From positions 3,795,001 to 3,859,000 of the forward strand of contig NZ_CP039690.1 in the NCBI RefSeq assembly GCF_005144885.1: 64,000 bases of DNA. Direction: 5' to 3'. The position numbers and the translations under genes are program-made. Within the stretch, counting starts at the first letter, position 1; each line of letters begins with the position of its first letter. The notes beneath the pieces are model-generated. The model did no database searches and was not told the origin of the DNA. It saw only the letters and a list, made by a program, of their open reading frames with translations. Below are positions 37,401-55,088 of this stretch, in pieces. Origin of the DNA: Phreatobacter stygius. GTDB taxonomy: Bacteria > Pseudomonadota > Alphaproteobacteria > Rhizobiales > Phreatobacteraceae.

Positions 37401-38231
37401 TCATGCCGGCGCCCGCCGGGCTTCAGCCGCGGCGACTGTCGCCTTCGCGGCGGCGAGCGTCCGGCGCGCCCATTCCTCGGGACCGAACTGAGGCGCCCGG
37501 CTCTCGCTCGGCAATTCGACGCTGACCGGCAGGTCACCGGGCAAAGTTGCGAACAGGCCGACGAGGTCGATGCCGCCTTCGCCCGGCAGCAGGCGTTCGC
37601 AGCGCGCGGTATGGATCAGTGCGTCGACAGGTGCCGTGCCGGCCGGCCCGTCGCAGATCTGGGCATAGTGCAGCCATTTGCGCGGGATCGCCGCGACATC
37701 GGCAAGCGTCGAACTGGACCGGCCATAATGCAAAGCGTCGACCAGGACGCCGCCGTTTTTCTGGTCGGCGCGCGAAACGATGCGCAATGCCGAGGACGCG
37801 TCCGGCACCTTGGTCCAGGGCATGAATTCGAGATCGCAGCTGAGTTCGAAAGGCGCTGCCGCTTCGCAGAGCGCAGCGAAATTCGCCGTCAGCCGCCCTT
37901 CGTCCGGATCGTCGCCGGCGACCAGGATGGCCCGGGCGCTGAGCCTCTGGCCGACTTCGAAGAAGGCGAGATAGTCGCTGGCCCTGAAGTCGGGGCCGAT
38001 GCGGATGATCTCCAGGTCGAAGACGTCGACATCGGTGTCCGCCATCAGGGCGAGCATCAAACGGACGGTGCCAGGATCGTCCATCAGCCGATAGCACCGT
38101 CCGCCGGGCGAGGCGGGCAGCAGGCGCAGGCCGATGAACTGGTAGCCGGTCTTGGCCGCCGCGTGGACCAGTTCGGTGGGCGAAAGGTCCAGCAGCGTGA
38201 GGTGGGCAAGCGAGTATCGCGTCGACATCAT
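37401..38231 (-). CDS. TIM-barrel sugar phosphate isomerase/epimerase-like protein
   Basis: A 276-residue AP-endonuclease-2-type barrel: YSLAHLTLLDLSPTELVHAAAKTGYQFIGLRL at the start, then the metal-ligand positions of the family (E135-type in CDLEFMPW, D in LVDALHYGRS, H in WLHYAQICD, E in VSVELPSE). Members isomerise sugars or dehydrate ring compounds such as 3-dehydroshikimate. It is the last gene of the minus-strand catabolic operon, 9 bases behind the NIPSNAP gene. Its substrate is inferred only from neighbours. Confidence 0.85.
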   Translation of the reverse strand: MMSTRYSLAHLTLLDLSPTELVHAAAKTGYQFIGLRLLPASPGGRCYRLMDDPGTVRLMLALMADTDVDVFDLEIIRIGPDFRASDYLAFFEVGQRLSARAILVAGDDPDEGRLTANFAALCEAAAPFELSCDLEFMPWTKVPDASSALRIVSRADQKNGGVLVDALHYGRSSSTLADVAAIPRKWLHYAQICDGPAGTAPVDALIHTARCERLLPGEGGIDLVGLFATLPGDLPVSVELPSESRAPQFGPEEWARRTLAAAKATVAAAEARRAPA

Positions 38232-38240
38232 CCGTTTCCG

Positions 38241-38855
38241 TCAGGCGAGCGGCGAGATTGCGGTCGGCAGGCCGATCGTCGAGACCATCTCGCCGGTCAG
38301 CCAGTCCGGCCCACCCTTGGGTGGCCAGACACCCCCGGCAACCGACTCGGTGCGCACCGCCGCACGCGCGTCGAGGCTGGCATAGGGCCAGATATGAGTG
38401 AAGCGCTGGGGCCCATCGAGCGCATACATGGCAATCGTCAGGGGCGACAGCTTGGCCCGCTCCGGCATGGCGGCCTCCCAGGCTGCGCTGGTCGGGCCGA
38501 CGCCGCCGAGTTTCAGGCCATAGGTGCGGATCTCGTAGACCTGGCCGAACTTTCCCGTGGTGACCGGCGGCAGGAAGGAAAACGGCGCATAACTTTCCAG
38601 GCGCAGATGGCTCAGCGCCTCGCCACAATGGAACGGATTGGTGGTGCCGAGCGTGCGGGTCCGCTCGGCCGCAAGCGCGTCGGCGTCGGCGAAGCCGCGC
38701 AGCACGACGAGGCGGTTGAGCTCGCCGATCTCGCTCGCCCAGCAGCCGAGCAGGCGGCCTTTCGCGGTGGGCTCCTTCACATAGCTGTCGATGCCGGCAA
38801 TGGCCTTGGCCGCGGTGCCGAGACGGATGGACAGCGTGGCGAGTTCATAGAGCAT
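38241..38855 (-). CDS. NIPSNAP family protein
   Basis: A 204-residue protein with two ferredoxin-like repeats, the second carrying the NIPSNAP signature VYEIRTYGLKLGG followed by a tryptophan-rich stretch (FTHIWPYASLDARAAVR). NIPSNAP proteins are small dimeric alpha+beta barrel proteins, sometimes catabolic accessory enzymes, whose role is generally unknown. It overlaps the flavoprotein gene by 11 nt, so it is part of the same operon. Confidence 0.85.
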   Translation of the reverse strand: MLYELATLSIRLGTAAKAIAGIDSYVKEPTAKGRLLGCWASEIGELNRLVVLRGFADADALAAERTRTLGTTNPFHCGEALSHLRLESYAPFSFLPPVTTGKFGQVYEIRTYGLKLGGVGPTSAAWEAAMPERAKLSPLTIAMYALDGPQRFTHIWPYASLDARAAVRTESVAGGVWPPKGGPDWLTGEMVSTIGLPTAISPLA

Positions 38856-40599
38856 GGCCTGGCTCCGGGGTTGAAGAAGGTCGATCGGGATCTTGTGGCA
38901 GCGGCGTGCCGCTGGCGTGATGGGCGGCGATGAAACCGAAGGTCATGGCGGGCCCGAGCGTGATGCCGCCGCTCGGGTAATTGCCGCCCATGATGCTCGC
39001 CATGTCATTGCCGACGGCATAGAGGCCGGCGATCGGCCGGTGATCGGGACCGAGCACGCGGGCATGTTCGTCGGTGGCGAGCCCGGCGAAGGTGCCGAGG
39101 CTGCCGGCGACGATCTTCACGGCATAGAACGGGCCGTCGAGGATCGGCCCGACGCTCGGATTGAGCGGGTGATGCGGCTCGCCCTGCACCCGGTTGTAAG
39201 CGCTCTCGCCGCGGTGGAAGAGCGGGTCGCGACCTTGCGCCGCGTGGTGGTTATGGACGGCGAGCGTTTCGACGAGGCCGCTGGGGTCGATGCCGCAGGC
39301 TTCGGCGAGCTGTTCGACGGTCGTCCCGCGCTTGAGATAGCCGCTGGCGAGCCAGCGTCCGAGCGCGAAGGGGCGCGGTCTCGCATGGCCGAGGCCGTAG
39401 CGGCGCTGGAACCGGTGGTCGCAGACGAGCCAGGCTTCCGGCGCTTCGCCCTTGGGCGTCGCGGCGAACAGCGCCGTCATCATGTCGTGATAGGAATCCG
39501 CCTCGTTGGTGAAACGCCGGCCGTCGCGGCGCACGGCGATGAGACCGGGCTTGGCCCGTTCGATCAGGTGCGGGAAGTGGCCGGTGGTGCCGTCGGGCCT
39601 GGGCACCAGCGACACCGGCGCCCAGGCGCCGGATGCAGCCAGATCGCGGCCGACCGCGCCGCCGGCGCTCTCGCCGAGCCTGAGCCCGTCGCCGGTATTG
39701 CCCGCCGGCGCCGCCGACCAGTGCTCGGTCCCGGTTGGGGCGTGCGCGAACAGTTCCGCCTTGCGTGCCGTGTCATGGGGAAAGCCGCCGGCCGCCAGCA
39801 CCACACCGCGCCGCGCCCGGATCGTGACGCTCCGGCCGTCATGTGCGGCGCTGACGCCGACCACCGCTGCGCCCTCGCGCACGAGACCGTGCGCCGGTGT
39901 CGCCGTCATGATCCGCACCTTGAGATCGTCGGCCGATTTCAGGAGCGCGGCGACCAGCGCATTGCCATTGACCAGGTGCATGCCGCGGCCGTTCAGCGCG
40001 ACATCCCGCCAGTGCCGCACGAGGCGCATCGCGACATGCCGGAACGAGGCGAGCGAAAAGGTGGCGCCGAGGAAATGTCGGAGATCGTCGCCAGCGGCGA
40101 TGCCCATGCCGAAGGGCGAGATCTCCTGGAGCGGCGGACGCAGATCCTTGATCCGCGGACCGAGCTTGCGGCCGTCGAACGGCGCGGCGCAGACCGAGCG
40201 GCCGCCGAGCGCGGCGCCGGGACTGCCGCCGTGGAAGTCCGGGATGGTATTGCCGGCAATGAAGCTGAGCGCGGTATGCGCGGTGAAGAAGGACACCATG
40301 CGCGGGCCCTGCGCCAGGAACATGTCGACGAAACGGGCGTCGTAGCGGTTGCCGAGCTCGTGGCGCAGATAGTCGCGCGGCCGCGCCGGGTCTTCGTCGA
40401 TGCCGGCGGCGCGCGCCAGCGGATTGCGCGGGATCCACAGCCAGCCGCCGGACCAGGCGCTGGTGCCGCCGAGCACCGGCTCCTTCTCGATGACCACCAC
40501 GTCGAGCCCGAGCCAGGCGGCGGTGACCGCGGCCGCAAGCCCGGCAGCGCCCGATCCGACGACGACGAGGTCGCAGCTGTCCTGATCCGGCATGGTCAT
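38845..40599 (-). CDS. FAD-binding dehydrogenase, 3-ketosteroid-dehydrogenase-like (first of two)
   Basis: A 584-residue flavoprotein: GSGAAG FAD motif (about 14-19), VIEKEPVLGGTSAWSGGWLWIP, VVLAAGGFPHD in the middle and the C-terminal GLYAVGNDMASIMGGNYPSGGITLGPAMTFGFIAA, which matches the ketosteroid Delta1-dehydrogenase/fumarate reductase branch. These enzymes desaturate next to a ring ketone or reduce enoyl acids. The frame continues upstream into the neighbour; ATG 40599 or 40593 is the likely start, 13 bases after the previous stop. It is a tandem paralogue of the next gene. Confidence 0.88.
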   Translation of the reverse strand: MTMPDQDSCDLVVVGSGAAGLAAAVTAAWLGLDVVVIEKEPVLGGTSAWSGGWLWIPRNPLARAAGIDEDPARPRDYLRHELGNRYDARFVDMFLAQGPRMVSFFTAHTALSFIAGNTIPDFHGGSPGAALGGRSVCAAPFDGRKLGPRIKDLRPPLQEISPFGMGIAAGDDLRHFLGATFSLASFRHVAMRLVRHWRDVALNGRGMHLVNGNALVAALLKSADDLKVRIMTATPAHGLVREGAAVVGVSAAHDGRSVTIRARRGVVLAAGGFPHDTARKAELFAHAPTGTEHWSAAPAGNTGDGLRLGESAGGAVGRDLAASGAWAPVSLVPRPDGTTGHFPHLIERAKPGLIAVRRDGRRFTNEADSYHDMMTALFAATPKGEAPEAWLVCDHRFQRRYGLGHARPRPFALGRWLASGYLKRGTTVEQLAEACGIDPSGLVETLAVHNHHAAQGRDPLFHRGESAYNRVQGEPHHPLNPSVGPILDGPFYAVKIVAGSLGTFAGLATDEHARVLGPDHRPIAGLYAVGNDMASIMGGNYPSGGITLGPAMTFGFIAAHHASGTPLPQDPDRPSSTPEPGHAL

Positions 40600-40612: not shown

Positions 40613-42322
40613 TCAGTTGGTTTCGCCGTGCAGGGCGTGGCGGATGGCGCGATAGGCGAAGGTGATGGCCGGGCCAATGGTGATGCCGGGGCCGGGATAG
40701 GTACCGCCCATGATCGACTGCATGTCGTTGCCGCAGGCATAGAGGTGGCGGATCGGCTGGTTGTCGCGGTCGAGCACTTGGGCCTGTTCGTCGGTGACCA
40801 GGCCGTTGGCCGCGCCGATATCGCCGGGATAGAGTTTGACGGCGTAGAACGGCGCGGTCGCAATCGGCCCGAGCGTCGGGTTCGGCTGCTGGCCGGCATC
40901 GCCATTGACCCGGTGATAGGCGGTCGTGCCGCGGCCGAATGCGGTATCCACGCCGGTGGCCGCATAGCCGTTCATGGCGGCGATGGTCTGTTCCAGCGCC
41001 TGGTCGTCGATGCCGAGCTTCTCCGCGAGTTCGGCAACGGACGGTGCTTCCGTCAGATAGCCGTCGGCGAGGTAAGGCTTCAGCCGGCGGCCGCCGGGGC
41101 GCACCATGCCGAGCCCGTATTTCCGCAAGCCCTCGGCATCGGTGATCAGGAAGGCCGGGATGCAGGGCGCCTGAGGATGCGTCTCGAACATGGCGCGCGA
41201 AAACAGGTGATAGGACACGGTTTCATTGACGAAGCGGCGGCCGAGGCTGTTGACCGCCACCGTGCCGGGTTTGCTCCGGTCCATGACAAAATGCGGGAAC
41301 ACCGCGGTCGAACCATCCGCGCGCTTGCGTACCGAGACCGGCGCCCAGAAGGCATTATCGAGACTGCCCTCGCCGAAGCGTGCGCCGAGGCCGAGCGCCA
41401 GGTCCTGCAGTTCGCCGGTATGGCCGGGCGCGCCAGGGCTATAGGCGGGCGTCGGCCGGTGCAGCATTTCGGCGCGGCGCGTCTTGTGCCGGTTGAAGCC
41501 GCCCGATGCCATGACGACGGCGGAGGTTGCGGTGATGCGCCGCGCCGCGCCCTGGCTCGCCAGCACGACACCGGTGACCGTATGGCCGTCCCGGATGAGC
41601 TCGGTGACCGACGTCTGAAGCACAATGTCGACCTGGCGTTGCCTGAGTGTCAGCAGCATCCGGCCGATCAGTGCATTGCCCATGACCAGCCGGGTGCCGC
41701 GCGGGCGGCTCAGCCGGTCGAGGGCATGACGTCCAAGCATCTTGGCTGCGTGGCGGAACGAGGCTACCGACTGTTTCAGCTTCAACAGGTGGCCGATATC
41801 GGTACGGTCGACCATCATGCCGCCGAAGATCGTGAATTCCGGGATCGGCGGACGCACCAGCGCCAGGACCTCGCCCAGTTGCCGTCCGTCGAAGGGCAGG
41901 GGTTCCAGGGCGCGGCCGGTCAGCGTCGCACCCTCGACCTCCTGGACATAGTCCGGATGCAGCGCATAGGGCCTGAACCTGACATCGGAACCGGCCTCCA
42001 GCACGGCGATGGCTTTTGGTGCGCTGCGCAAAAAGGCCCGGCGCATGTCGAGCCGCGAATGATTGCCGACGACATTGGTCAGGAACCGGTCGGCCTTCTC
42101 GAAACTGTCGCCCGATCCCTTGGCATGGTGGCTGTTCGGTGCCCAGGTGGTGGCAGCCGACAGCGCCGTCGTGCCGCCGAGATATTCGGTCCGCTCGACC
42201 AAGAGAACCCGCTTGTCCTCGATCGCCGCGAACACGGCGGCCGCCATGCCGGCGCCGCCCGATCCGATCACCACCACGTCGTAGCTGGCGCCGTCCTGAA
42301 GGCCGTCGAGCTTGCCGATCAT
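40613..42322 (-). CDS. FAD-binding dehydrogenase, 3-ketosteroid-dehydrogenase-like (second of two)
   Basis: A 569-residue flavoprotein: GSGGAG (about 20-25), LVERTEYLGGTTALSAATTWAPN, VVMASGGFNRHKTRR and the closing LYACGNDMQSIMGGTYPGPGITIGPAITFAYRAIRHA. Domain order and length match its downstream paralogue, so the pair arose by duplication and probably acts on consecutive or alternative ring positions. It overlaps the AroE-like gene by 4 nt. An alicyclic keto acid is a candidate substrate; that is inference from the operon. Confidence 0.88.
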   Translation of the reverse strand: MIGKLDGLQDGASYDVVVIGSGGAGMAAAVFAAIEDKRVLLVERTEYLGGTTALSAATTWAPNSHHAKGSGDSFEKADRFLTNVVGNHSRLDMRRAFLRSAPKAIAVLEAGSDVRFRPYALHPDYVQEVEGATLTGRALEPLPFDGRQLGEVLALVRPPIPEFTIFGGMMVDRTDIGHLLKLKQSVASFRHAAKMLGRHALDRLSRPRGTRLVMGNALIGRMLLTLRQRQVDIVLQTSVTELIRDGHTVTGVVLASQGAARRITATSAVVMASGGFNRHKTRRAEMLHRPTPAYSPGAPGHTGELQDLALGLGARFGEGSLDNAFWAPVSVRKRADGSTAVFPHFVMDRSKPGTVAVNSLGRRFVNETVSYHLFSRAMFETHPQAPCIPAFLITDAEGLRKYGLGMVRPGGRRLKPYLADGYLTEAPSVAELAEKLGIDDQALEQTIAAMNGYAATGVDTAFGRGTTAYHRVNGDAGQQPNPTLGPIATAPFYAVKLYPGDIGAANGLVTDEQAQVLDRDNQPIRHLYACGNDMQSIMGGTYPGPGITIGPAITFAYRAIRHALHGETN

Positions 42323-43140
42323 CGGCGCGCACCCGCTTCCGTGCTCGATCCACCCAGCAGGAATTCCAGCATCAACTGCTGTTCGGCCGCATACATGTCG
42401 CCGCCGACCGAGGTCTTGCAGCCGATGGCGCGGGCAGCCTCCACCATGGGCGACACGGCCGGCGCGGTGATCACGCAGCCGACGAACATGTCGGGCGTGA
42501 AATGTTCGATCCTGACCGGCAGCGGGTCGGTCGGCCGCATGCCGGCGGGCGTGGCATTGGCGATCAGTTCGAAACCGGCCGGATCGGGCGACCCGATGCT
42601 GACCGGCGTCGCCGTCACGGCGGCGAGCCGCTTGATCAATGCGTCGCGCCGCACGCTGTCCGCGTCATGGATGGCGAGCTCGCGGACGCCGGCCTCGACC
42701 AGGGCGAGTGCGATCGCCGAGCCGGCACCGCCGGCGCCGACCAGCAGTGCGCGTTTGCCCTTGGGCTCGCCGCCTTTGGCGCGCATGCCGCCGACGAAGC
42801 CGAGGCCGTCGAACATCTCGCCGAACCAGCCGCCATCGGCGGTCCGCCTGATGATGTTGACCGCGCCGAGGAAATGCGCCCGCTCGGTGGCGCTGGTGCA
42901 ATGGGCGTAGCAGGCGAATTTATGCGGCACGGTGACGATGATGCCGTCCAGGTTCTGCGCCAGGCTGGCGCCGGCCAGCAGGCCGGGTAGATCCTTCGGC
43001 GCCACGTGGATCGGCACGCAGAGCGCGTTCCGGCCACGGGTGGCGAAGGCTGCGCTCATGCCGGTGGGCGATTTCACCTGGGCGATCGGGTCGCCGACGA
43101 TGATGTGGAGCCGGGTCGCTCCGTCGACTGTCACGGTCAT
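42319..43140 (-). CDS. Shikimate/quinate dehydrogenase-like protein (AroE family)
   Basis: A 273-residue AroE-family oxidoreductase. Substrate domain: IIVGDPIAQVKSP (13-25), TVPHK with catalytic lysine K74, GAVN (N95) and FDGLGF with catalytic aspartate D111. NAD(P) domain: LLVGAGGAGSAIA (132-144). The loop after the next strand reads IHDADSVRR, an acidic residue that favours NAD over NADP, as in catabolic quinate/shikimate dehydrogenases. Its place in a transport-linked operon supports a catabolic rather than a biosynthetic role. Confidence 0.85.
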   Translation of the reverse strand: MTVTVDGATRLHIIVGDPIAQVKSPTGMSAAFATRGRNALCVPIHVAPKDLPGLLAGASLAQNLDGIIVTVPHKFACYAHCTSATERAHFLGAVNIIRRTADGGWFGEMFDGLGFVGGMRAKGGEPKGKRALLVGAGGAGSAIALALVEAGVRELAIHDADSVRRDALIKRLAAVTATPVSIGSPDPAGFELIANATPAGMRPTDPLPVRIEHFTPDMFVGCVITAPAVSPMVEAARAIGCKTSVGGDMYAAEQQLMLEFLLGGSSTEAGARR

Positions 43141-43179
43141 GGCAATGCTCCATCCCTTGTCGGGCTGTCGGGTCTGATC

Positions 43180-45708
43180 TCAATGAACGGCTTCGGGTGT
43201 CGCTTCGGCCTGGACGACGCCGAGCAGGCGCGCCTGCAGCTTGTGGTCCTGTTCGAGTACTGCGGCGTCGCCCTCGAAGGCGACCCGGCCATTGACCAGG
43301 ACATAGGCCCGGTCGACGATCGGCAGCACGGTTTCGGCATGGTGCTCGACGATCACCATGGCGACCTTGCCGCGCAGCCGGACCAGCGCCTCCATCACCT
43401 CCTTGACGACCGCCGGGGCCAGGCCCTCGAACGGCTCGTCGAGCAGGATCAGCTTGCTCGGCATGACCAGGGCGCGGGCGATCGCCGCCATTTGCCGCTC
43501 ACCGCCGGACAGGCTTTCGGCCTTGGCGCGCTGGCGCGCCTTCAGCCGCGGGAACAGCTCGAACACCGCGTCGAAGGACAGCCCGCCCGGTCGCGCGGCG
43601 ATCTGCAGGTTCTCCATGACGGTGAGGTTCGGGAACAGCCGCCGGCCTTCCGGCACCAGGGAGATGCCGAGCCGGTTGATCTCATAGGTCTTGGATGCCG
43701 AGATATCGGTGCCGTCGAAACTCATGGCGCCGGAGCTTATCGCCAGGCTGCCGGTCAGCGCACGCAGCGTCGTCGTCTTGCCGACGCCGTTGCGTCCGAG
43801 CAGGGCGACGGCCTCGCCCTCGCGGACGACCAGGTTGAGATCGTCGAGCACCGACGAACCGCCATAACCGACGGCGACGTTTTTCACCACCAGCAGCGGT
43901 TTCGACGTGGTGGTGTCGGTACGCGTCACCGCCGGTGCCGCCGCCGCGCCGGCGTCCTTGGCGGCGCCGAGATAGGCCGCGATGACCTCGGGGTTGGAAC
44001 CGACCTCGGCCGGCGGGCCATCGGCGATCAGGCGGCCCTGATGCAGCACGGTGATGCGGTCGGACAAGGCCAGCACCCGGTCGATATCATGTTCGATCAG
44101 CAGCACGGCGTGCCGGTCGGCGAGCTTGCGGATCAGGGCCGCCACGACCTGGCGATCGGCTTCGGCAAGGCCTGCCAGCGGCTCGTCGAGCAGCAGCAGC
44201 TTGCAGTCGGTGGCGAGCGTCACCGCGATCTCGAGCAGACGCTTGGCGCCGTGGGGCAGATTGGCGCACGGCTCGGCTGCCTGGTCGGCGAGACCCACCG
44301 CGTCGAGGATCGACCAGGACCGGTCGTTGATACCGGTCAGATCATAGGCGTCGCGGATCAGCCCGCTGATGCCGTGGCGCTGCGCCTGCACCGCGACCCG
44401 GACATTCTCGAACACGGTCAGGTTCGGGAAGATCGACAGGATCTGGAACGATCGGCTGATGCCGAGCCGGGCCCGCGCATACATCGGCAGACCGGTGATG
44501 TCCTTGCCCTCGAAGGTAATGGTGCCGCTGTTCGGCGGCAGGACGCCGGTCAGCATGTTGAACAAGGTGGTCTTGCCGGCGCCGTTCGGGCCGATGATGC
44601 TGTGCAGCCGGAACGGCATGACCTCGAGGTCGATGGCATTGGCCGTGACCAGGCTGCCGAAGCTCTTGCTCAAGCCCCTGACCGACAGGATCGGCCTGGC
44701 GGCATCGACCTGGATCGCGGCGCTCTCATAAGGCGCGATGTCAGCCGGGCGCGCAGGGATCGCGGCGCGCGTCAAGGTCCAGCGCTCGCGGCGCATGATC
44801 CGCTGGGCGAGCCCGTGGATGCCTTCCGGCGACAAGAGCGCGAAGGCGATGATGATCGGCGCGAAGATCAGCCACCAGTTCTCGGTCAAGGCCGACAGCC
44901 GGTTCTCCAGCACGATGAAGGCAATGGCGCCCCACAGCGGCCCGAGGAAATGGTGGACGCCGCCGAGCACGGTCATCAGGAGCGGGTCGCCGGCATGCTG
45001 CCAGCTCAGATTATTGGCATAGACCCCCTGCAGCATGAGGGTCAAAAGCGCGCCGGCATAACCGATGACGCCGGCCATCAGGGTGAACGAGCCGAGCTTG
45101 ATCAGATAGGTGTTGTAGCCGAGGCTCGAGGCGCGCTGCTCGTTGTCGCGCACCGCCTGCAGCACCCGGCCGAAGGGGGCATGGACCAGCCGCCAGAGGA
45201 ACCACAGGCCGGCGACGACGCTCGCCACCGTGAAGATGTGGAAGGCCATGTCGCTGCCGAAGGAGGGCCGCGGGACGCCCTGGATGCCGTTCTCGCCGCC
45301 GGTGACGCTGGTCCATTTGAACGCCAGTTCGAAGGCGATCTGCGAGAAGGCGAGCGTCAGCAGCGAAAAATAGAGGCCGCGGCGGCGGAGGATGATCAGC
45401 CCCATCACCAGCGCCATGACCATGGAGAAGACGACCGACAGCACCAGCGCGGCGAATTCGTTGCCGACCACGCTGACAATGGCGAAGGCGGCGGCATAGC
45501 TGGCGCAGCCGAAGAACACCGAGGCGCCGAACGGCACCAGGCCGGTATAACCGATCAACAGGTTCACGCCGGCGCCGTAGAGCGCATAGATGGCGATCTG
45601 GGTGACCAGCGAGATCGGCGCGCCGAGCGCGGTCCACAAGACCGACAGGGCGGTCAGCACGACCGCGACCCACAGGATCGGATTGGTCAGGAGCGACGGG
45701 GTTTTCAT
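43180..45708 (-). CDS. LivM-LivG-LivF triple fusion ABC transporter
   Basis: An 842-residue single chain. Residues 1-310: LivM-type permease (GYTGLVPFGASVFFGCASYA, RRRGLYFSLLTLAFSQIAFE, VTGGENGIQG). Residues 335-585: LivG-type ATPase (Walker A GPNGAGKT 373-380, signature LPHGAKRLLEIA, Walker B LLLLDEPLAGL). Residues 600-842: LivF-type ATPase (GRNGVGKT 638-645, LSGGERQMAAIARAL, LILLDEPFEGLAP). Linkers at 311-335 and 582-602 are Ala/Pro-rich. All motifs are intact. LivM-LivG fusions are known; carrying LivF too is uncommon. It overlaps the LivH-like gene by 4 nt. It should assemble with LivH and the receptor. Confidence 0.92.
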   Translation of the reverse strand: MKTPSLLTNPILWVAVVLTALSVLWTALGAPISLVTQIAIYALYGAGVNLLIGYTGLVPFGASVFFGCASYAAAFAIVSVVGNEFAALVLSVVFSMVMALVMGLIILRRRGLYFSLLTLAFSQIAFELAFKWTSVTGGENGIQGVPRPSFGSDMAFHIFTVASVVAGLWFLWRLVHAPFGRVLQAVRDNEQRASSLGYNTYLIKLGSFTLMAGVIGYAGALLTLMLQGVYANNLSWQHAGDPLLMTVLGGVHHFLGPLWGAIAFIVLENRLSALTENWWLIFAPIIIAFALLSPEGIHGLAQRIMRRERWTLTRAAIPARPADIAPYESAAIQVDAARPILSVRGLSKSFGSLVTANAIDLEVMPFRLHSIIGPNGAGKTTLFNMLTGVLPPNSGTITFEGKDITGLPMYARARLGISRSFQILSIFPNLTVFENVRVAVQAQRHGISGLIRDAYDLTGINDRSWSILDAVGLADQAAEPCANLPHGAKRLLEIAVTLATDCKLLLLDEPLAGLAEADRQVVAALIRKLADRHAVLLIEHDIDRVLALSDRITVLHQGRLIADGPPAEVGSNPEVIAAYLGAAKDAGAAAAPAVTRTDTTTSKPLLVVKNVAVGYGGSSVLDDLNLVVREGEAVALLGRNGVGKTTTLRALTGSLAISSGAMSFDGTDISASKTYEINRLGISLVPEGRRLFPNLTVMENLQIAARPGGLSFDAVFELFPRLKARQRAKAESLSGGERQMAAIARALVMPSKLILLDEPFEGLAPAVVKEVMEALVRLRGKVAMVIVEHHAETVLPIVDRAYVLVNGRVAFEGDAAVLEQDHKLQARLLGVVQAEATPEAVH

Positions 45709-46574
45709 TCAAATCTCTCCCAACGCTCGCCGAACAGGCCGCGCGGCCTGACGAGAAGGATGATCGCCATCAGCACGTACATGGCCGCGCCCGAGGCTTC
45801 CGGTTTGAACTGGATGGTCATGGCGGTGACCAGGCCGACCAGGAGGCCGGCAATGATCGCGCCGTTATAGGAGCCGAGCCCGCCAATGGTGACGATGACG
45901 AAGGCCGGCATGATGGCGCCGGCGGCCATTGACGGATTGACCGTCCAGAGCGGCGCGGCGAGCATGCCGGCAAGCCCCGCGAGCAGGCAGCCGAGGCCGA
46001 ACACGCCGGAGAGCACGCGCGGCAGGTTGATGCCGAGCAGGCCGACCATCTCGCCGTCGCGTGAACCGGCGCGCAGGATCCGGCCATAAGGCGTGTAGAC
46101 CAGGAAGGCCCAGAGCCCGATCAGCGCGGTGACGGTCGTTGCGAGCACGAACAGCCGGTACCTGGTGATCAGGATCGGGCCATATTCGATGAAGCCGGAC
46201 AGGAAGCGCGGCGCGCTGAACGGCACTGGCGCGCCGCCATAGGCGAGCCGCAGCAGGGCCTCGATCAGGAGCGCCAGCGCGAAGGTCAGGATCAGGCCGA
46301 GCAGCGGCTCCTTGCCGTAGAGCCTGCGGATCAGCACGAATTCGACCACGATGCCAACCAGGCCGGTCAGCACCGGCGCCAGCCAGATGGCGGCCCAGCC
46401 GAACTGGCGCGACAGCGACAGGGCGAAATAGGCGCCGAGCGCGAAGAATGCGCCATGGGCGAAATTGACGATGCCGAGCAGGCCGAAAATGATCGACAGG
46501 CCGATGGCGATCAACACGTAGAGGAAGCCGAGCACGAGGCCGTTGACGGCTTGAGACAGGATCATGTCGAGCAT
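45705..46574 (-). CDS. LIV-type ABC transporter permease, LivH-like
   Basis: A 289-residue permease of the LivH type: MILSQAVNGLVLGFLYVLIAIGLSIIFGLLGIVNFAHGAFFALGAYFAL at the N-terminus and GGLGSYNGAIIAGLLVGLVTA near the end. It is the only separate membrane partner of the triple fusion. ATG 46574 or 46565 is possible. It is 108 bases downstream of the receptor gene. Confidence 0.92.
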   Translation of the reverse strand: MLDMILSQAVNGLVLGFLYVLIAIGLSIIFGLLGIVNFAHGAFFALGAYFALSLSRQFGWAAIWLAPVLTGLVGIVVEFVLIRRLYGKEPLLGLILTFALALLIEALLRLAYGGAPVPFSAPRFLSGFIEYGPILITRYRLFVLATTVTALIGLWAFLVYTPYGRILRAGSRDGEMVGLLGINLPRVLSGVFGLGCLLAGLAGMLAAPLWTVNPSMAAGAIMPAFVIVTIGGLGSYNGAIIAGLLVGLVTAMTIQFKPEASGAAMYVLMAIILLVRPRGLFGERWERFE

Positions 46575-46682: not shown

Positions 46683-47942
46683 TCAGACCCCGTCCATGGT
46701 GCAGCCGATCTGCTGGCGCGTGCCGAAGATCGGCTCGATCTCGGCGGCGCTGCGCGGCAGGTTGGCCTTGGCGTCGAAATAGTCCCAGCGATCGGTGATC
46801 TTGGGCTTGGTCTCGACCACCACGGTGCGCCGCAGCATCTGGTGGTCGAAGTCGCGATATTTGACCGAGAGGTCGCCTTCCCGGGTGGTCCAGCGTTCGA
46901 GCGCGCCGACGATCTCCGGGGCCGCCGTCGACTTGGCGAGCTCGATGCTTTCCAACAGCGACTTCATGCCGAACCAGCCCATCCAGGCTTTGTCGGCCGC
47001 CGGCCGGTTGTGCTTCTTCAGATAGGCCGCGGCGAAGGCCTTGTCCTCGGCGGTGTTGTTCGGATTGTTGAAGTACCAGGTCTTGGTGAAGATGCCGGTC
47101 GCGGCGTCAGCGCCGACGCCCCAGATATCGGTGTCGCCGATCGAGATTTCGGCGAAGGGAATGCGCCCCTTCATGCCGAGCTCGTTCCACTGCTTGAGGA
47201 AGGTGGTGAGGTCGCCGGCGGCGATGCCGCCGATCACCGCATCGGGCCGGGCCTGGCGGATCTTCAGGATGAAGGACGAATAGTCGGGCGTGTTGACCGG
47301 CACCTCGTCGGCGCCGACCACCGTGCCGCCGGCCTGTTTCAGGTAATCGGTGAACGACGCCTTGATGTCCTGTCCGAAGGCGTAGGACGCGGTCAGGAGA
47401 TACCATTTCTTGCCGTGTTCCAGCACATAGGGCGCCAGCACGCGGGCATGGACGTCGACCGGCGGCTGCAGCCGGAAGGTATATTTGTTGCACGACTTGC
47501 CGGTCAGGTCGGCGGTCGCCGCATTGGCGGCGACGAATGGGATCTTGGCGCGCTTGGCGACCGCCGAGATGGCCAGCGCATTGGACGACAGCGCGCCGCC
47601 GATCAGGCCGACCACCTTGTGCTCGTCGATCAGGCGCTGGGCATTCTGCTGGGCGCCTTGCGGATTGGGCTCATCCAGCCAGACGATCTCGGCGGGTCGG
47701 CCGAGCAGCGTGTTGTTGAGCTGTTCGAGTGCCAGGAAACCGCCCTGGGCGAGATATTCCGACTGGTCGACGATGGTGCCGGTCTTGGCCCAGAGCATGC
47801 CGATCTTGATCGGCTCGGCGGCGCTGGCCTTGCCGATATAGGGCGCGCCGAGGTGGGTTGCGGCAAGACCGCCGGCGCCGATCAAGAGGCTGCGGCGGCC
47901 GATCAGGCCGAGCCTGGATGGGATCCCTGTCATGTCATTCAT
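46683..47942 (-). CDS. LIV-type ABC transporter substrate-binding protein
   Basis: A 419-residue type I periplasmic receptor. The signal carries a twin Arg (GLIGRRSLLIGAGGLAATHLGAP), then IKIGMLWAKTGTIVDQSEYLAQGGFLALEQLN and QRLIDEHKVVGLIGGALSSNALAISAVAKRAKIPFV of peripla_BP_6. It is the first gene of the minus-strand catabolic operon and its promoter region contains the palindromes shared with the divergent Gfo/Idh-IclR arm. Ligand inferred to be the pathway substrate. Confidence 0.9.
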   Translation of the reverse strand: MNDMTGIPSRLGLIGRRSLLIGAGGLAATHLGAPYIGKASAAEPIKIGMLWAKTGTIVDQSEYLAQGGFLALEQLNNTLLGRPAEIVWLDEPNPQGAQQNAQRLIDEHKVVGLIGGALSSNALAISAVAKRAKIPFVAANAATADLTGKSCNKYTFRLQPPVDVHARVLAPYVLEHGKKWYLLTASYAFGQDIKASFTDYLKQAGGTVVGADEVPVNTPDYSSFILKIRQARPDAVIGGIAAGDLTTFLKQWNELGMKGRIPFAEISIGDTDIWGVGADAATGIFTKTWYFNNPNNTAEDKAFAAAYLKKHNRPAADKAWMGWFGMKSLLESIELAKSTAAPEIVGALERWTTREGDLSVKYRDFDHQMLRRTVVVETKPKITDRWDYFDAKANLPRSAAEIEPIFGTRQQIGCTMDGV

Positions 47943-48156: not shown

Positions 48157-49206
48157 ATGGCGAAACTCAGGATGGCGGTTGTCGGCGCCGGCGCGATCGG
48201 CCGGGCCCATGCCGAGGTCATCGCGGCCGGCAATGTCGCCGAGCTCGCCGCGATCGTTGACCCGACCGATGCGGGCAGGGCCGTCGCCGTGCATTTCGGC
48301 GTGCCGTGGTTTGTCGATCAGGACGCCCTGCTGGCGGCCGGCACGGTGGATGCGGCCATCGTCGCGACGCCCAACCAGACCCACCTGCCGGTTTCGCTCG
48401 CCTTCATCGAACGCGGCATTCCGGTGCTGGTCGAAAAGCCGATCGCCAGCACGCTGGCCGAGGCGCGGGCGCTGACCGCGGCCGCCGAGAAAGCCGGTGT
48501 TGCCGTCCTGGTCGGTCATCACCGGCGGCATAATCCGATCGCCAGGCGCGCCCGCGACCTGGTGCGCTCGGGCACGCTCGGGCGGCTGACATCGGTCTCG
48601 GTGCTCTACACATTCCTGAAACCCGACAGCTATTTCGAGCTCGACTGGCGGCGTCGCGCCGGCGGCGGCCCGGTCTTGATCAACCTGATCCATGAGATCG
48701 ACCTGATCCGCTTCATCTGCGGCGAGATCGAATCGGTCCAGGCGGTCACCTCCAATGCGGTCAGGGGCTTCGAGGTCGAAGACAGCGCCGCCGTCATCCT
48801 CCGGCTCGCCGGCGGCGCGCTGGTGACGGTCAATGTCTCGGACACCGCGGTCGCGCCCTGGAGCTGGGATATGGCGACGCGCGAAAGCCAGCATTATCCG
48901 CAGTTGCCGGTGCCGGTGAATTCGCATTACCTGTCCGGCACGGCGGCGTCCTTGACCTTGCCGCAGCTCGACCTCTGGCGTTATCCAGGCAAGGCCGGCT
49001 GGCACGAACCGATCGCCCGCGAGACGGTTCCGGTCGAGCGCGCCGATCCCTATGCCGAGCAGATCCGCCACCTCTGCGCGGTCGCGCGCGGCGAGGAGCA
49101 GCCGGTGATCAGCGCCGCCGACGGCACCCGCACCCTGGAGGCGACGCTCGCCGTGCATGAGGCTGCCAGGATAGGAGCGCCCGTTGCTCTGAGCTATGGA
49201 CAATAG
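48157..49206 (+). CDS. Gfo/Idh/MocA family NAD(P)-dependent oxidoreductase
   Basis: A 349-residue protein: N-terminal Rossmann domain with VVGAGAIGRAHAEVI (8-22), VLVEKPIAST (the EKP motif, about 92-100), and a C-terminal alpha/beta domain with GGPVLINLIHEIDLIRFI holding the catalytic histidine. It oxidises or reduces a hydroxyl of a sugar, inositol or other cyclic polyol. It is the first gene of the plus-strand arm of the catabolic locus. Confidence 0.9.
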   Translation: MAKLRMAVVGAGAIGRAHAEVIAAGNVAELAAIVDPTDAGRAVAVHFGVPWFVDQDALLAAGTVDAAIVATPNQTHLPVSLAFIERGIPVLVEKPIASTLAEARALTAAAEKAGVAVLVGHHRRHNPIARRARDLVRSGTLGRLTSVSVLYTFLKPDSYFELDWRRRAGGGPVLINLIHEIDLIRFICGEIESVQAVTSNAVRGFEVEDSAAVILRLAGGALVTVNVSDTAVAPWSWDMATRESQHYPQLPVPVNSHYLSGTAASLTLPQLDLWRYPGKAGWHEPIARETVPVERADPYAEQIRHLCAVARGEEQPVISAADGTRTLEATLAVHEAARIGAPVALSYGQ

Positions 49207-49229
49207 CTGTGTTGAACGGAGAATCGCTG

Positions 49230-50081
49230 ATGGCCGCGGCGCAAGATGAAGGCTCTGGCCCGTCCGGACTGCTGGAGAGAACCCTTGGTGTCCTGGAGAT
49301 CCTGGCGCTCAACGCCCATGGGCTTCAGCTCTTCGAGATCGCCGACAAGCTGCATATCCCGCGCAGCGCCACCCATCGCGTCCTGACCAGCCTGGTCGAG
49401 CACGGTTATGTCCGGCAGGAGCGCTACCACGGCGCCTATCTGCTGACCGCCAAGATCGCCTCGCTCGCCTTCACCTTCCTGTCCGAAAGCGGCATCACCG
49501 ACCTGGCCCAGCCGATCCTCGACCGGCTGGCGCGCGACACCGGCGAGCTCATTCGCCTCGCCCTGGTCGACGACCAGCGGCTGATCTGGGTCGCCAAGTC
49601 GCAAGGTGCCCAGTTCGGCCTGCGCTACGATCCGGACATGGGGCGCGAGGGCCGGCTGTCCTGTTCGTCGAGCGGCCATGCCTGGCTCTCCACCATGAAG
49701 GAAGAGGATGCCCTGGCGCTGGTCGCCAGGCAGGGTTACGGCTCGCGTGAGGAATATGGGCCGCGCGCGCCGCAGACGCCGCAGGCGCTGGTCAAGCAGC
49801 TGAGAGCCGCCCGCAAGCGCGGCTATGCCTTCGTGGTCCAGGCCTTCACCCCCTGGATGAACGCCATGGCGGCGATCATCCGTTCGCCGGTCACCGGCGA
49901 GGTCACCGGCACGGTCAGCATTGCCGGGCCGCATGTCCGGCTCACCGAGCCGCGCATGCACGAACTCGCGCCGCTGCTGCTGACGGCAGCCAAGGAATTG
50001 TCGCTTGCGAGCGCCGCCTCGCCGACGTTGTCCGGCCGTGCCGGCGGCGATCAGCGCGACGGCCTGGTGCCGCTGATCTGA
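49230..50081 (+). CDS. IclR family transcriptional regulator
   Basis: A 283-residue regulator: winged helix-turn-helix (LFEIADKLHIPRSATHRVLTSLVEHGYV, about 35-62) and GAF-like effector domain (ILDRLARDTGELIRLALVD, SSSGHAWLSTM, FVVQAF...AAIIRSPVTGEVTGTVSIAG). ATG 49230 has ACGGAGA upstream; GTG at 49209 would add seven residues. It is 23 bases behind the Gfo/Idh gene and most likely controls both arms of the locus through the palindromes at 48029-48078. Confidence 0.9.
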   Translation: MAAAQDEGSGPSGLLERTLGVLEILALNAHGLQLFEIADKLHIPRSATHRVLTSLVEHGYVRQERYHGAYLLTAKIASLAFTFLSESGITDLAQPILDRLARDTGELIRLALVDDQRLIWVAKSQGAQFGLRYDPDMGREGRLSCSSSGHAWLSTMKEEDALALVARQGYGSREEYGPRAPQTPQALVKQLRAARKRGYAFVVQAFTPWMNAMAAIIRSPVTGEVTGTVSIAGPHVRLTEPRMHELAPLLLTAAKELSLASAASPTLSGRAGGDQRDGLVPLI

Positions 50082-50139: not shown

Positions 50140-51039
50140 ATGCGCGTACTGGTCACCGGCGGCAAGGGTTTTCTCGGCGCCTGGATCATCCGGCGCCTGC
50201 TCAAACAGGGCCTGGCCGTCAGGATCTTCGACGTCGCCGAGGACCGGGGCCTGGTCGAGGCCATCGGCGGCATCAGGGCGGGCGAGGTCGAATGGCATGT
50301 CGGCGACATCGTCACGGGCGAAGACGTCCTGACGGCGGCCGCCGGCTGCCATGCCATCGTGCATCTGGCCGGGGTCCTGACGCCAGCCTGCCAGGCCCAC
50401 CCGGTGCGCGGCGCCGAGATCAACCTGATCGGCACGCTGAACGTCTTCGAGGCGGCGCTTCGCCACGGCATCAGCCGTGTCGTCTATACCAGCAGCGCCG
50501 GCGTCTATGGTCCCGACGACGGCCTGACGCCACGCCCGACCACCCATTACGGCACCTTCAAGCTCGCCTGCGAGGGCAGCGCCCGGGCCTATCTCGCCGA
50601 TCATGGCCTGGCCAGCATCGGCTTCAGGCCGTTCATCGTCTACGGCCCCGGCCGTGAGACCGGCCTGACCGCCGGACCGAGCCTGGCCTGCCGGGCGGCG
50701 GCGCGCGGCGAGAGCTACCGGATCCCCTATAGCGGCAGCGCCGGCCTGGTTTTCGTCGACGATGTCGCCGCGGCTTATGAAAGCGCCGTGCTGCGCGACC
50801 CCGCCGGCGCCCATGTGTTCAACCTGGTCGGCACCACGGTCTCCAATGACGATGTCGTCGCGGCGATCCGCCGGGTCGTCGCGAGCGCCGATATCACCGC
50901 CGGCGGACCGGCCCTGCCGATCGCGGCCGATGTCGATCCCGGTGCGATCGCCGCGGTCCTGCCCGGCCTGCCGCAGACCAGCCTGACCGACGGCATTGCC
51001 CTGACCGTCGATTTCTACCGGCAAGGTGGCCGCCTATGA
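50140..51039 (+). CDS. NAD(P)-dependent epimerase/dehydratase family protein
   Basis: A 299-residue extended SDR: GGKGFLGAWI (7-16), VVYTSSAGVYGPDDG (Ser) and THYGTFKLACE (YxxxK). Members act on nucleotide-sugars, lactones or hydroxy-acids. Its stop overlaps the start of the next TIM-barrel gene by 4 nt. It probably handles a ring-hydroxyl or lactone step in the plus-strand arm of the locus. Confidence 0.88.
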   Translation: MRVLVTGGKGFLGAWIIRRLLKQGLAVRIFDVAEDRGLVEAIGGIRAGEVEWHVGDIVTGEDVLTAAAGCHAIVHLAGVLTPACQAHPVRGAEINLIGTLNVFEAALRHGISRVVYTSSAGVYGPDDGLTPRPTTHYGTFKLACEGSARAYLADHGLASIGFRPFIVYGPGRETGLTAGPSLACRAAARGESYRIPYSGSAGLVFVDDVAAAYESAVLRDPAGAHVFNLVGTTVSNDDVVAAIRRVVASADITAGGPALPIAADVDPGAIAAVLPGLPQTSLTDGIALTVDFYRQGGRL

Positions 51040-51869
51040 CCCTGCCGCGCCTTGGCGCCCATACCTTCGGTTTCGCCTGGGACCGCGATGCCGAGGCGGC
51101 GTTCGAAGCCCTCGCCGGCGCAGGCTTTTCGACCCTCCAGCTGATGGCGGCGCCGCCACATTACGATCCCTGGGCTGCCGACCCGGCCTTGCAGCGCCGG
51201 CTCCGCCGCCTGATCGATCGGGCCGGCATCGCGCTGCTGGCACTCGATCTGGCGAGCAACGACGTCAATCTGGCGAGCCCGTCGCGCGCGGTGGTCGATT
51301 TTGCCGTCGATGCCTATGGCCGGGCGATCGATCTCGGCGCCGACCTCGGCGCCCGCGGCATCTGCGTCGCCTCGGGCCGGCGCCATGCGCTGGCGCCGCA
51401 GGCAGGCGACCAGCTTCTCGGCATCTATCGCGACGCCTTCGAGCGCATCCTGTTGCGCGCCCGCGACGCCGGCATGGGTGTCGTCCTGGAGAACCATCCG
51501 AACGGCCTGCTGGCGGAGATGGAAGCGATCGAAAGCTTCCTGGCCGCCGGCGCTTATGATGGCGTTTCGATCGCCTATGACGTCGCCAATGCCGCCGCCA
51601 TCGGCGAGGACCCCTCGGCCGGCTTGCGGCGGCTCCTGCCACATCTCGGCATCGTCCATCTCTCCGATGCGCCGCGCGGCGCGTGGCGCCATGATCCGAT
51701 CGGCTCGGGCGATATCGATTTCTCGGCGATCGGCGGAACCATCAGGGAGATCGGCTTCGCCGGCCCGGTCGTGCTCGAAATCATCTCCAGCCGGCCGCTC
51801 GACGATATCCTGGCCGGCCGCGACCGGCTCCTGGCCGCCGGCTGGCATTTTGCCGGTCAACCAGGTTGA
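51036..51869 (+). CDS. TIM-barrel sugar phosphate isomerase/epimerase-like protein (second copy)
   Basis: A 277-residue AP-endonuclease-2-type barrel: FAWDRDAEAAFEALAGAGFSTLQLMA, metal-ligand residues in MGVVLENHPNG (E), IAYDVANAAAI (D), IVHLSDAPRG (H) and VVLEIISSRP (E). It is the same family as the gene at 37401-38231 but only distantly similar by eye. Its ATG overlaps the epimerase stop (ATGA), so it ends the plus-strand arm. It may isomerise a ketose or dehydrate a ring. Confidence 0.87.
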   Translation: MTLPRLGAHTFGFAWDRDAEAAFEALAGAGFSTLQLMAAPPHYDPWAADPALQRRLRRLIDRAGIALLALDLASNDVNLASPSRAVVDFAVDAYGRAIDLGADLGARGICVASGRRHALAPQAGDQLLGIYRDAFERILLRARDAGMGVVLENHPNGLLAEMEAIESFLAAGAYDGVSIAYDVANAAAIGEDPSAGLRRLLPHLGIVHLSDAPRGAWRHDPIGSGDIDFSAIGGTIREIGFAGPVVLEIISSRPLDDILAGRDRLLAAGWHFAGQPG

Positions 51870-53949: not shown

Positions 53950-54121
53950 GACTCAGCGCAGGCTGAGAGGTGCGTCGAGGCCGGTGGCCACCGGCCTCGA
54001 CGCGGATGTCCGGGACCGTTTCACCCTTTGGCTCAGCACCGCGGGAGAGCATGGTCCGGCCGTCCTCTGGCTCTTGTCCTGAACAGATGCTGGGGAGGAA
54101 GTCCCGTATGCAAGGCAAGGA
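53950..54121 (+). ncRNA. Predicted IS110 bridge RNA
   Basis: Ends are approximate. From 5': a small hairpin CTCAGC-GCAG-GCTGAG (53952-53967); a 32-base perfect palindrome (53972-54003, arm GCGTCGAGGCCGGTGG); a target-binding loop closed by GGACC (54013-54017) and GGTCC (54053-54057). That loop holds CACCCT (54022-54027, identical to the left target plus core) and GGGAGAG (54043-54049, complement of core plus right target). A donor loop follows, closed by CTTGTC (54073-54078) and GGCAAG (54114-54119). It holds ACAGATGCT (54083-54091, identical to the right end plus core) and ATGCAAG (54108-54114, complement of core plus left end). The last guide covers the transposase start codon. Confidence 0.75.
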
Positions 54122-55088
54122 AGCGTCCAAACAAGAGACCGAAGGCAAGTCTACCGTGGGAATCGACGTCAGCAAGAGCTGGCTCGACATCCACGTTCTG
54201 CCCGGCGGGGAGACCCACCGTTTTGCCAATGCCGAGTTGGGCATCCGGCAGTTGAAGCGCTGGCTTCAGCGCTTTGATCTGGCGCTGGTCGTGGTCGAGG
54301 CGACCGGCAAGTGGCACCGCCAGGTTCGCCGAAGCCTGCATGCCTCGGGCGTGCCGGTTGCCGTGGTCGATCCTTATCGCGTGCGCATGTTCGCGCGTGC
54401 CACGGGCACCTTGGCCAAGACCGACCGGCTCGATGCCCGCGTGTTGGCCCTGTTCGCGCGGGCCATGAACCCGGCCCAGCGACCGCCGGCACCGGAAGCC
54501 CTCGATGCGCTCAATGAGTTGGTCAGCGCCCGCGATGCGGCCGTCGGCGAACAGACAGCCCTCAAGAACCAGCGGCACGCGGTCACCGACAAGTTCCTGA
54601 TCCGCCATCTCGCTCACCGTCTCACCCGGATCGCCAAGGCTATCGAAGCCATCGCCGGCGAGATCGCCAAACGCATCGCGGCCGATCCATGCCTGGCCAG
54701 ACGCCACGACATTCTGATCTCGATCCCTTCGTTCGGCCCGGCGGTCGCCACGACCCTGGTGGCCGCCCTGACCGAGCTGGGGACCTGCAACATCAAACAG
54801 ATCAGCCTGTTGGCGGGACTAGCCCCGATCGCCGATGATTCCGGTGAACGACAGGGCGTCCGCGTCATCTGGGGCGGACGCTCCCGGGTGCGCCGCGTTC
54901 TCTACCTGGCGGCGCTCTCGGCCACGCGCTGCAACGCCGACATGAAAAGTTTCCACGACCGCCTGATCGCCAAGGGCAAGAAGCCCAAATGCGCCCTCAT
55001 CGCCGTGGCTCGAAAGCTCGTCGTCCTCGCCAACACCCTTATCGCTCAGGACCGCACTTGGGCCACTCACGCTCCAAAACAGGCTTGA
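54108..55088 (+). CDS. IS110-family transposase (DEDD recombinase)
   Basis: A 326-residue recombinase with a RuvC-like N-terminal domain: GIDVSK (D20), VVVEATG (E64) and AKTDRLDARVLA (D106, D109), the DEDD set. A coiled-coil linker (about 135-200) leads to the Tnp_20 domain with IPSFGPAVATTLVAALTELG and APIADDSGERQGVRVIWGGRSRVRR, where S245 is the likely nucleophilic serine. A GGGGAGGAAG site precedes ATG 54108. All catalytic residues are present, so the element is probably active. It would use the upstream RNA to pair donor and target. Confidence 0.93.
   Translation: MQGKEASKQETEGKSTVGIDVSKSWLDIHVLPGGETHRFANAELGIRQLKRWLQRFDLALVVVEATGKWHRQVRRSLHASGVPVAVVDPYRVRMFARATGTLAKTDRLDARVLALFARAMNPAQRPPAPEALDALNELVSARDAAVGEQTALKNQRHAVTDKFLIRHLAHRLTRIAKAIEAIAGEIAKRIAADPCLARRHDILISIPSFGPAVATTLVAALTELGTCNIKQISLLAGLAPIADDSGERQGVRVIWGGRSRVRRVLYLAALSATRCNADMKSFHDRLIAKGKKPKCALIAVARKLVVLANTLIAQDRTWATHAPKQA

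Follow-up and report, generated by a model that had tools for sequence, protein, structure and literature searches.

The canonical LIV importer contains one copy each of LivH, LivM, LivG and LivF. Importers of this LivFGHM/HAAT type (TC 3.A.1.4) share with the system described here the binding protein, the pair of BPD_transp_2 permeases, the LivF-like ATPase and the LivG-like ATPase with its BCA_ABC_TP_C domain. The difference is that in the present system LivM, LivG and LivF make up one chain, and that the E. coli-type Liv models score its parts under their cut-offs. Close to it stand the LivM-LivG fusions (L003, L008, L009, L010 and L147 among the loci that we read), where a permease is likewise joined to a LivG-like ATPase but LivF is separate; four of them (L003 and L008-L010) group with another lineage of triple fusions, not with the one analysed here. 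Two ATPase domains in one chain are also found in DppD of the DppABCD importer of M. tuberculosis (8wdb); DppD, however, presumably has no permease domain, and DppABCD belongs to a different importer family.

Public (NCBI) annotation already uses a fused name, so the object is not unseen. The product name 'branched-chain amino acid ABC transporter ATP-binding protein/permease', the same for all these matched genes, is given to plasmid genes of Roseomonas, Methylobacterium nodulans, Rhizobium sullae, Paracoccus methylovorus and Paraburkholderia largidicola, as well as to a more distant gene of Ponticoccus (of the 40% type defined below); the part 'ATP-binding protein/permease' is silent on the presence of two ATPase domains. 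A search of the open-licence literature by title and abstract opening found no description of the triple fusion, and an earlier description in print may exist. What we describe is an uncommon but stable and widely inherited variant of a well-known transporter.

The fused LivM-LivG-LivF chain

The window (the whole stretch of 64,000 nt of the Phreatobacter stygius genome that was analysed) carries on its minus strand a stop-free frame of 842 codons that starts with ATG (43180-45708). Pfam finds in its translation one BPD_transp_2 domain (residues 32-290), two ABC_tran domains and BCA_ABC_TP_C (residues 559-583). With the help of an AlphaFold model and an alignment of 87 family members (the 80 loci kept from the scan described below and seven others), the minus-strand chain was divided into a LivM-like permease domain (residues 1-302; 44803-45708), supported by the Pfam match and the model helices; linker 1 (residues 303-338; 44695-44802) with the conserved motif WTLTRxxIPxRPxxIxPY; a LivG-like ATPase domain, NBD1 (residues 339-583; 43960-44694), at whose C-terminal end lies BCA_ABC_TP_C; linker 2 (residues 584-603; 43900-43959), variable and Ala/Pro-rich; and a LivF-like ATPase domain, NBD2 (residues 604-831; 43216-43899), whose best solved relative is 1ji0.

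Walker A, signature, Walker B and H-loop motifs are readable in both NBDs. Across the alignment the Walker A motif of NBD1 is identical in 87/87 members, the Walker A lysine of NBD2 is present in 86/87, and the Walker B DEP of either domain in 87/87. The signature of NBD2 is LSGG in 85 members and ISGG in two, and its H-loop EH occurs in all 87; NBD1 has LPHGA in place of the textbook LSGGQ, with the HG retained in 87/87. The catalytic motifs of the two domains are thus kept in nearly all members and no degenerate site is evident; from these kept motifs ATP-driven uptake is predicted. A sequence-only reading of this DNA had proposed that LivM, LivG and LivF are fused in this order into one 842-residue chain with intact motifs. 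The single frame, the Pfam domains and 80 of 80 relatives bear out the fusion, and for the two ATPase domains the conservation of Walker A (86-87 of 87 members) and of the Walker B DEP (87 of 87) bears out the motifs.

On the opposite strand a frame of 954 codons (43006-45870, plus strand) spans the whole fusion in codon register. It was considered as a gene and rejected, being stop-free over the fusion in 15/80 orthologues and interrupted by 1 to 15 stops in the others; it is probably a shadow of base composition.

Conservation, linkers and origins of the fusion

A scan of named genome contigs yielded 232 candidates, 171 of them relatives, of which the best 80 were kept. All 80 carry the three domains in one frame (two of them cut by a contig end), with 63-93% identity to the window's chain. 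They come from Alpha- and Betaproteobacteria, including Bosea, Bradyrhizobium, Xanthobacter, Acetobacteraceae, Azospirillum, Burkholderia, Paraburkholderia, Caballeronia and Bordetella. Since the search ranks long single-frame matches first and could miss split orthologues, the 80/80 count demonstrates the age and stability of the fusion but not the absence of split orthologues. In six same-genus copies (L034-L037, L041 and L042) a whole-genome search (described below) reported '1 TGA' inside the match; all six proved to be whole triple frames when read.

Because all of the kept loci carry one frame, the fusion is, as judged from these sequences, genuine and not the artefact of lost stops. That a sequencing or assembly error, or a recent mutation, removed two stop codons is a general possibility for any such chain, and nothing more specific speaks for it; given the same frame in the 80 kept loci, in copies from further genomes (93% and 65-68% identical) and in annotated plasmid records, we regard its probability as negligible. 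Stop codons at the linkers, named beforehand in the sequence-only reading as the observation that would count against it, are likewise contradicted by the relatives with the same open frame.

The two linkers, both of which that reading had described as Ala/Pro-rich, differ in character. Linker 2 fits the description: it varies from 16 to 29 residues among the 87 members with a mean identity of 23% to the window, is Ala/Pro-rich, and is predicted to be disordered (pLDDT <50 at residues 581-593 of the AlphaFold model). Linker 1 does not: it has 36-41 residues and a mean identity of 54%, is predicted with fair confidence (pLDDT 72-84 in the blocks of residues 301-340, mostly without helix or strand), and is a conserved segment, not a loose Ala/Pro spacer. 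The motif W-[TSA]-[LVI]-[TVSAL]-R-x-x-[IV]-P-x-R-P is found in its sequence in 80/87 members; the other seven (L033, L051, L052, L055, L056, L094 and L108) have a close variant, e.g. RWTLTNNTIPPRP. Counted over triple-fusion loci, 81/107 have the motif; of the 26 that lack it, seven are the members just named, 16 belong to the 40% lineage and three to the second lineage. Split or LivM-LivG loci lack it (0/28, a few of these loci overlapping one another). The motif is therefore a marker of the window's family and not of the fusion as such.

In whole-genome searches at E <= 1e-120, with the window's own genome counted each time, matches were found in 18/61 relatives, 9/240 genomes of the class and 16/299 genomes of the phylum. 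The loci read in the 18 matched relatives were all triple fusions, as were those in eight of the nine matched genomes of the class and in 10/10 of the genomes read among the 16 matched in the phylum. The exception in the class, L147, turned out on reading to be a LivM-LivG fusion plus LivF. By these counts the triple fusion has a wide distribution but is uncommon. The window's genome contains, at another place, a second triple fusion of about 40% identity, and a triple fusion of roughly this 40% type is carried by 11/11 genus mates, one of which (G003) has the window's type as well. Four LivM-LivG fusions were found among the loci read in the window's genome (L003, L008, L009 and L010); L003, considered as a third triple fusion there, was dropped when reading showed LivM-LivG plus a separate LivF.

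In a concatenated three-domain tree of 69 rows (46 triple, 19 split and four LivM-LivG) the window's family and the 40% family fall together with an SH-aLRT value of 98, and a mixture-model tree of 57 rows keeps this group at 92. In the 69-row tree the triple fusions L045-L047 group elsewhere, alongside one split system and the four LivM-LivG fusions. A tree constrained to unite all triple fusions is worse by 128 log-likelihood units (p-AU 2.4e-5), in a test whose constrained group was named after the first tree had been seen and in which many split rows have long branches. At least two separate origins of the triple fusion are what the trees best support. Members from Alpha- and Betaproteobacteria are intermixed, and some are carried by plasmids or large extra replicons; both observations suggest horizontal transfer.

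The window's genome (7.35 Mb) has a large set of importers of LIV or sugar type, with 106 BPD_transp_2 permease domains over cut-off. First-look candidate counts in 49 genomes of the same order outside the genus had a median of 170.5 in the six with a match and 92 in the 43 without; the difference (Mann-Whitney p 0.046) is uncorrected for genome size or kinship and was not used as evidence for a link between the fusion and richness in ABC systems. Other kinds of fusion were also seen. Two loci of the window's genome, 4436063-4437829 and 6496764-6498641, have two permease domains each, which were assigned to open frames of equal length (685 and 696 aa), and are possible LivH-LivM fusions. LivH-like and LivM-like domains share one frame in L027, and also in a related importer of Haloferax larsenii (L131, 1445-3472), a fusion of another type.

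Assembly and mode of action

LivH is encoded separately, as the sequence-only reading had noted, by a gene directly upstream (45705-46574, minus strand), both in the window and in 77/80 loci; in the other three (L097, L119 and L126) the fused gene is at or near a contig end. In the window the stop codon of LivH overlaps the start of the fusion in ATGA (45705-45708). The same kind of overlap ends the LivH frame in the 77 loci (ATGA in 65, GTGA in 12), and in 76/77 the start codon within it shares the reading frame of the fusion, so coupled translation of the two genes is likely. A scan for sigma-70 promoters and terminators added nothing to this picture. In our judgement LivH, the fused chain and the binding protein probably form a working ABC importer of LIV (HAAT) type.

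The AlphaFold model of the fused chain, built from 49 sequences as a monomer without LivH, has a mean pLDDT of 84.7, with values <50 at residues 1-6 and 832-842 besides the stretch at linker 2; its pTM of 0.68 makes the domain placement uncertain. Foldseek ranks first 8wdb_D, the chain with two ATPase domains in the ATP-bound DppABCD structure (rmsd 5.4; TM 0.71, normalised by target length). VIA-align superimposes on this chain 460 residues of the model range 338-833 (Z 27.1, rmsd 4.5) and places it at row 40, behind single-ATPase chains; all its rows are ATPase-domain matches, no model range starting before residue 332, so the permease fold is outside this comparison. The model thus supports, without proving, a pairing of NBD1 with NBD2 of the same chain.

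The fused chain might dispense with LivH and form a homodimer with two LivM, two LivG and two LivF parts, much as exporters with membrane-ATPase fusions homodimerise (PMC2821768). Yet such a dimer would contain four ATPases, two from each chain; in the model, NBD1 and NBD2 are partners, like the two domains of a tandem-ATPase chain; and a LivH gene adjoins and overlaps the fusion start in 77/80 loci, the remaining three being at contig ends. We consider a homodimer highly improbable.

'LIV' is the name of a family, not of a substrate, and the traits of the LIV/HAAT type are present: two permeases matched by BPD_transp_2 (LivH 125.6 bits, fused chain 113.3 bits; cut-off 26.8), a LivG-type ATPase with BCA_ABC_TP_C (39.9 bits in the whole chain, 42.0 bits in the domain alone; cut-off 25.5) and a Peripla_BP_6 protein in the cluster. 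That the system imports branched-chain amino acids proper (LIV-I) or urea is suggested by the best models of the two ATPase domains, UrtD/LivG and UrtE/LivF, and the whole chain indeed passes the UrtD (343.9) and UrtE (305.6) cut-offs. It does so because two ATPase domains are summed; with domains scored apart, UrtD (224.2/304.1) and UrtE (200.2/285.8) both fail, as does UrtC (114.4/296.2), and the urea-importer label was rejected. UrtA (75/492.75) and UrtB (175.5/250.3) are under their cut-offs too, and so are the E. coli-type models of LivM (104.8/366), LivG (208.9/362) and LivF (167.5/441), domains apart, and of LivH for the LivH gene (96.5/379). None of these scores measures substrate, but together with a gene cluster that looks catabolic they make a LIV-I or urea importer unlikely. 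The system belongs to the broad LIV family and probably acts as a LIV importer does, but by the curated models it is neither LIV-I nor Urt. The UrtD/UrtE case also illustrates that whole-protein cut-offs can mislabel multi-domain chains.

The importer built of LivH, the fused chain and the binding protein probably works in the same way as the usual version with separate parts. LivH and the fused chain would be made by coupled translation through the overlapping stop and start; the binding protein would hand its solute to a pore that LivH and the LivM domain build together; and NBD1 and NBD2 of one chain, to go by the model, would come together in the usual two-site ATP sandwich, with each domain in contact with one membrane half. 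Packed between the last LivM helix and NBD1, linker 1 may act as a constrained connector, and linker 2 may be a flexible tether on which NBD2 can move into position beneath LivH. One membrane half and both ATPases would thus come in a fixed ratio, in a genome with many paralogous LIV parts. The sequence-only reading had pointed out the 1:1:1 ratio forced by the fusion; this ratio is not new in principle, since LIV importers are already taken, as general knowledge, to hold one of each subunit.

A doubtful extension is that the triple fusion is a repeated answer to subunit mixing, which keeps the importer from borrowing paralogous ATPases where about fifty LIV- or sugar-type permease pairs coexist; in the window's lineage linker 1 would then have turned into a functional part, a brace of conserved and ordered sequence holding NBD1 against LivM, with NBD2 loosely tethered, and the importer would be asymmetric. 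The two likely separate origins allow a comparison of whether fusion guards against cross-assembly in paralogue-rich genomes. In a natural single-chain importer of this kind stoichiometry and asymmetry of the ATPase sites are easy to test, as one mutated site means one ATPase per complex.

The gene cluster and the candidate substrate

Upstream of LivH the minus strand encodes the periplasmic substrate-binding protein (46683-47942; Peripla_BP_6, 230.5 bits), and a related binding protein accompanies the fusion in 74/74 loci with room or a match. Downstream of the fusion, on the same strand and identified by profile matches, follow a shikimate-dehydrogenase-like protein (42319-43140) and a FAD-dependent oxidoreductase similar to ketosteroid and cyclohexanone dehydrogenases (FAD1, 40613-42322), then a second FAD-dependent oxidoreductase (FAD2, 38845-40599), a NIPSNAP family protein (38241-38855) and a xylose-isomerase-like TIM barrel with a weak match to the 3-dehydroshikimate dehydratase QuiC (37401-38231). 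The FAD2 frame extends to 40965, where its first ATG overlaps the adjoining oxidoreductase gene; since homology sets in at about residue 123, translation probably starts at 40599. Divergently, on the plus strand, lie a Gfo/Idh/MocA oxidoreductase (48157-49206), whose nearest model is inositol 2-dehydrogenase, below cut-off, and an IclR-family regulator (49209-50081). Downstream of the latter the plus strand encodes an NAD-dependent epimerase and another TIM barrel of the xylose-isomerase-like kind (50140-51869), which possibly belong to the same pathway. An IS110-type transposase (53970-55088, plus strand) is located near the outer edge of the cluster.

The neighbour counts cover both strands to a distance of about 6 kb and include the loci that have room for the gene or a match to it. 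The shikimate-dehydrogenase-like protein is present in 42/79 loci, FAD1 in 36/72, FAD2 in 31/68, NIPSNAP in 27/63, the TIM barrel in 30/65, IclR in 28/65 and Gfo in 33/66; the binding protein, LivH, the shikimate-dehydrogenase-like protein, FAD1, FAD2 and the TIM barrel occur together in 18/80 loci. Because the set of neighbouring enzymes varies from locus to locus, members of the family may have different substrates.

The nearest named activities of the neighbours (shikimate, cyclohexanone and ketosteroid dehydrogenases, dehydroshikimate dehydratase and inositol dehydrogenase) concern six-membered carbon rings. The named models are not passed (QuiC 32.2/1200, inositol dehydrogenase 146.3/355 and shikimate dehydrogenase 119.2/252 bits), and FAD1 and FAD2 pass only the unspecific 'FAD-dependent oxidoreductase' models. 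From these neighbours only, we tentatively infer that the substrate may be a hydroaromatic or cyclitol-like acid with a six-membered ring and not a branched-chain amino acid, a proposal about which we remain somewhat more doubtful than convinced; once imported, such a solute would be oxidised by the neighbouring dehydrogenases. A search for ring-opening IolD-type enzymes in the clusters of two relatives led to thiamine-diphosphate enzymes that were fitted best by acetolactate-synthase models and were over no cut-off among the 25 best rows. In two Rhodopila genomes (L078, 2243-4797, and L077, 2255-4820) two binding-protein genes stand in tandem upstream of the fused importer.
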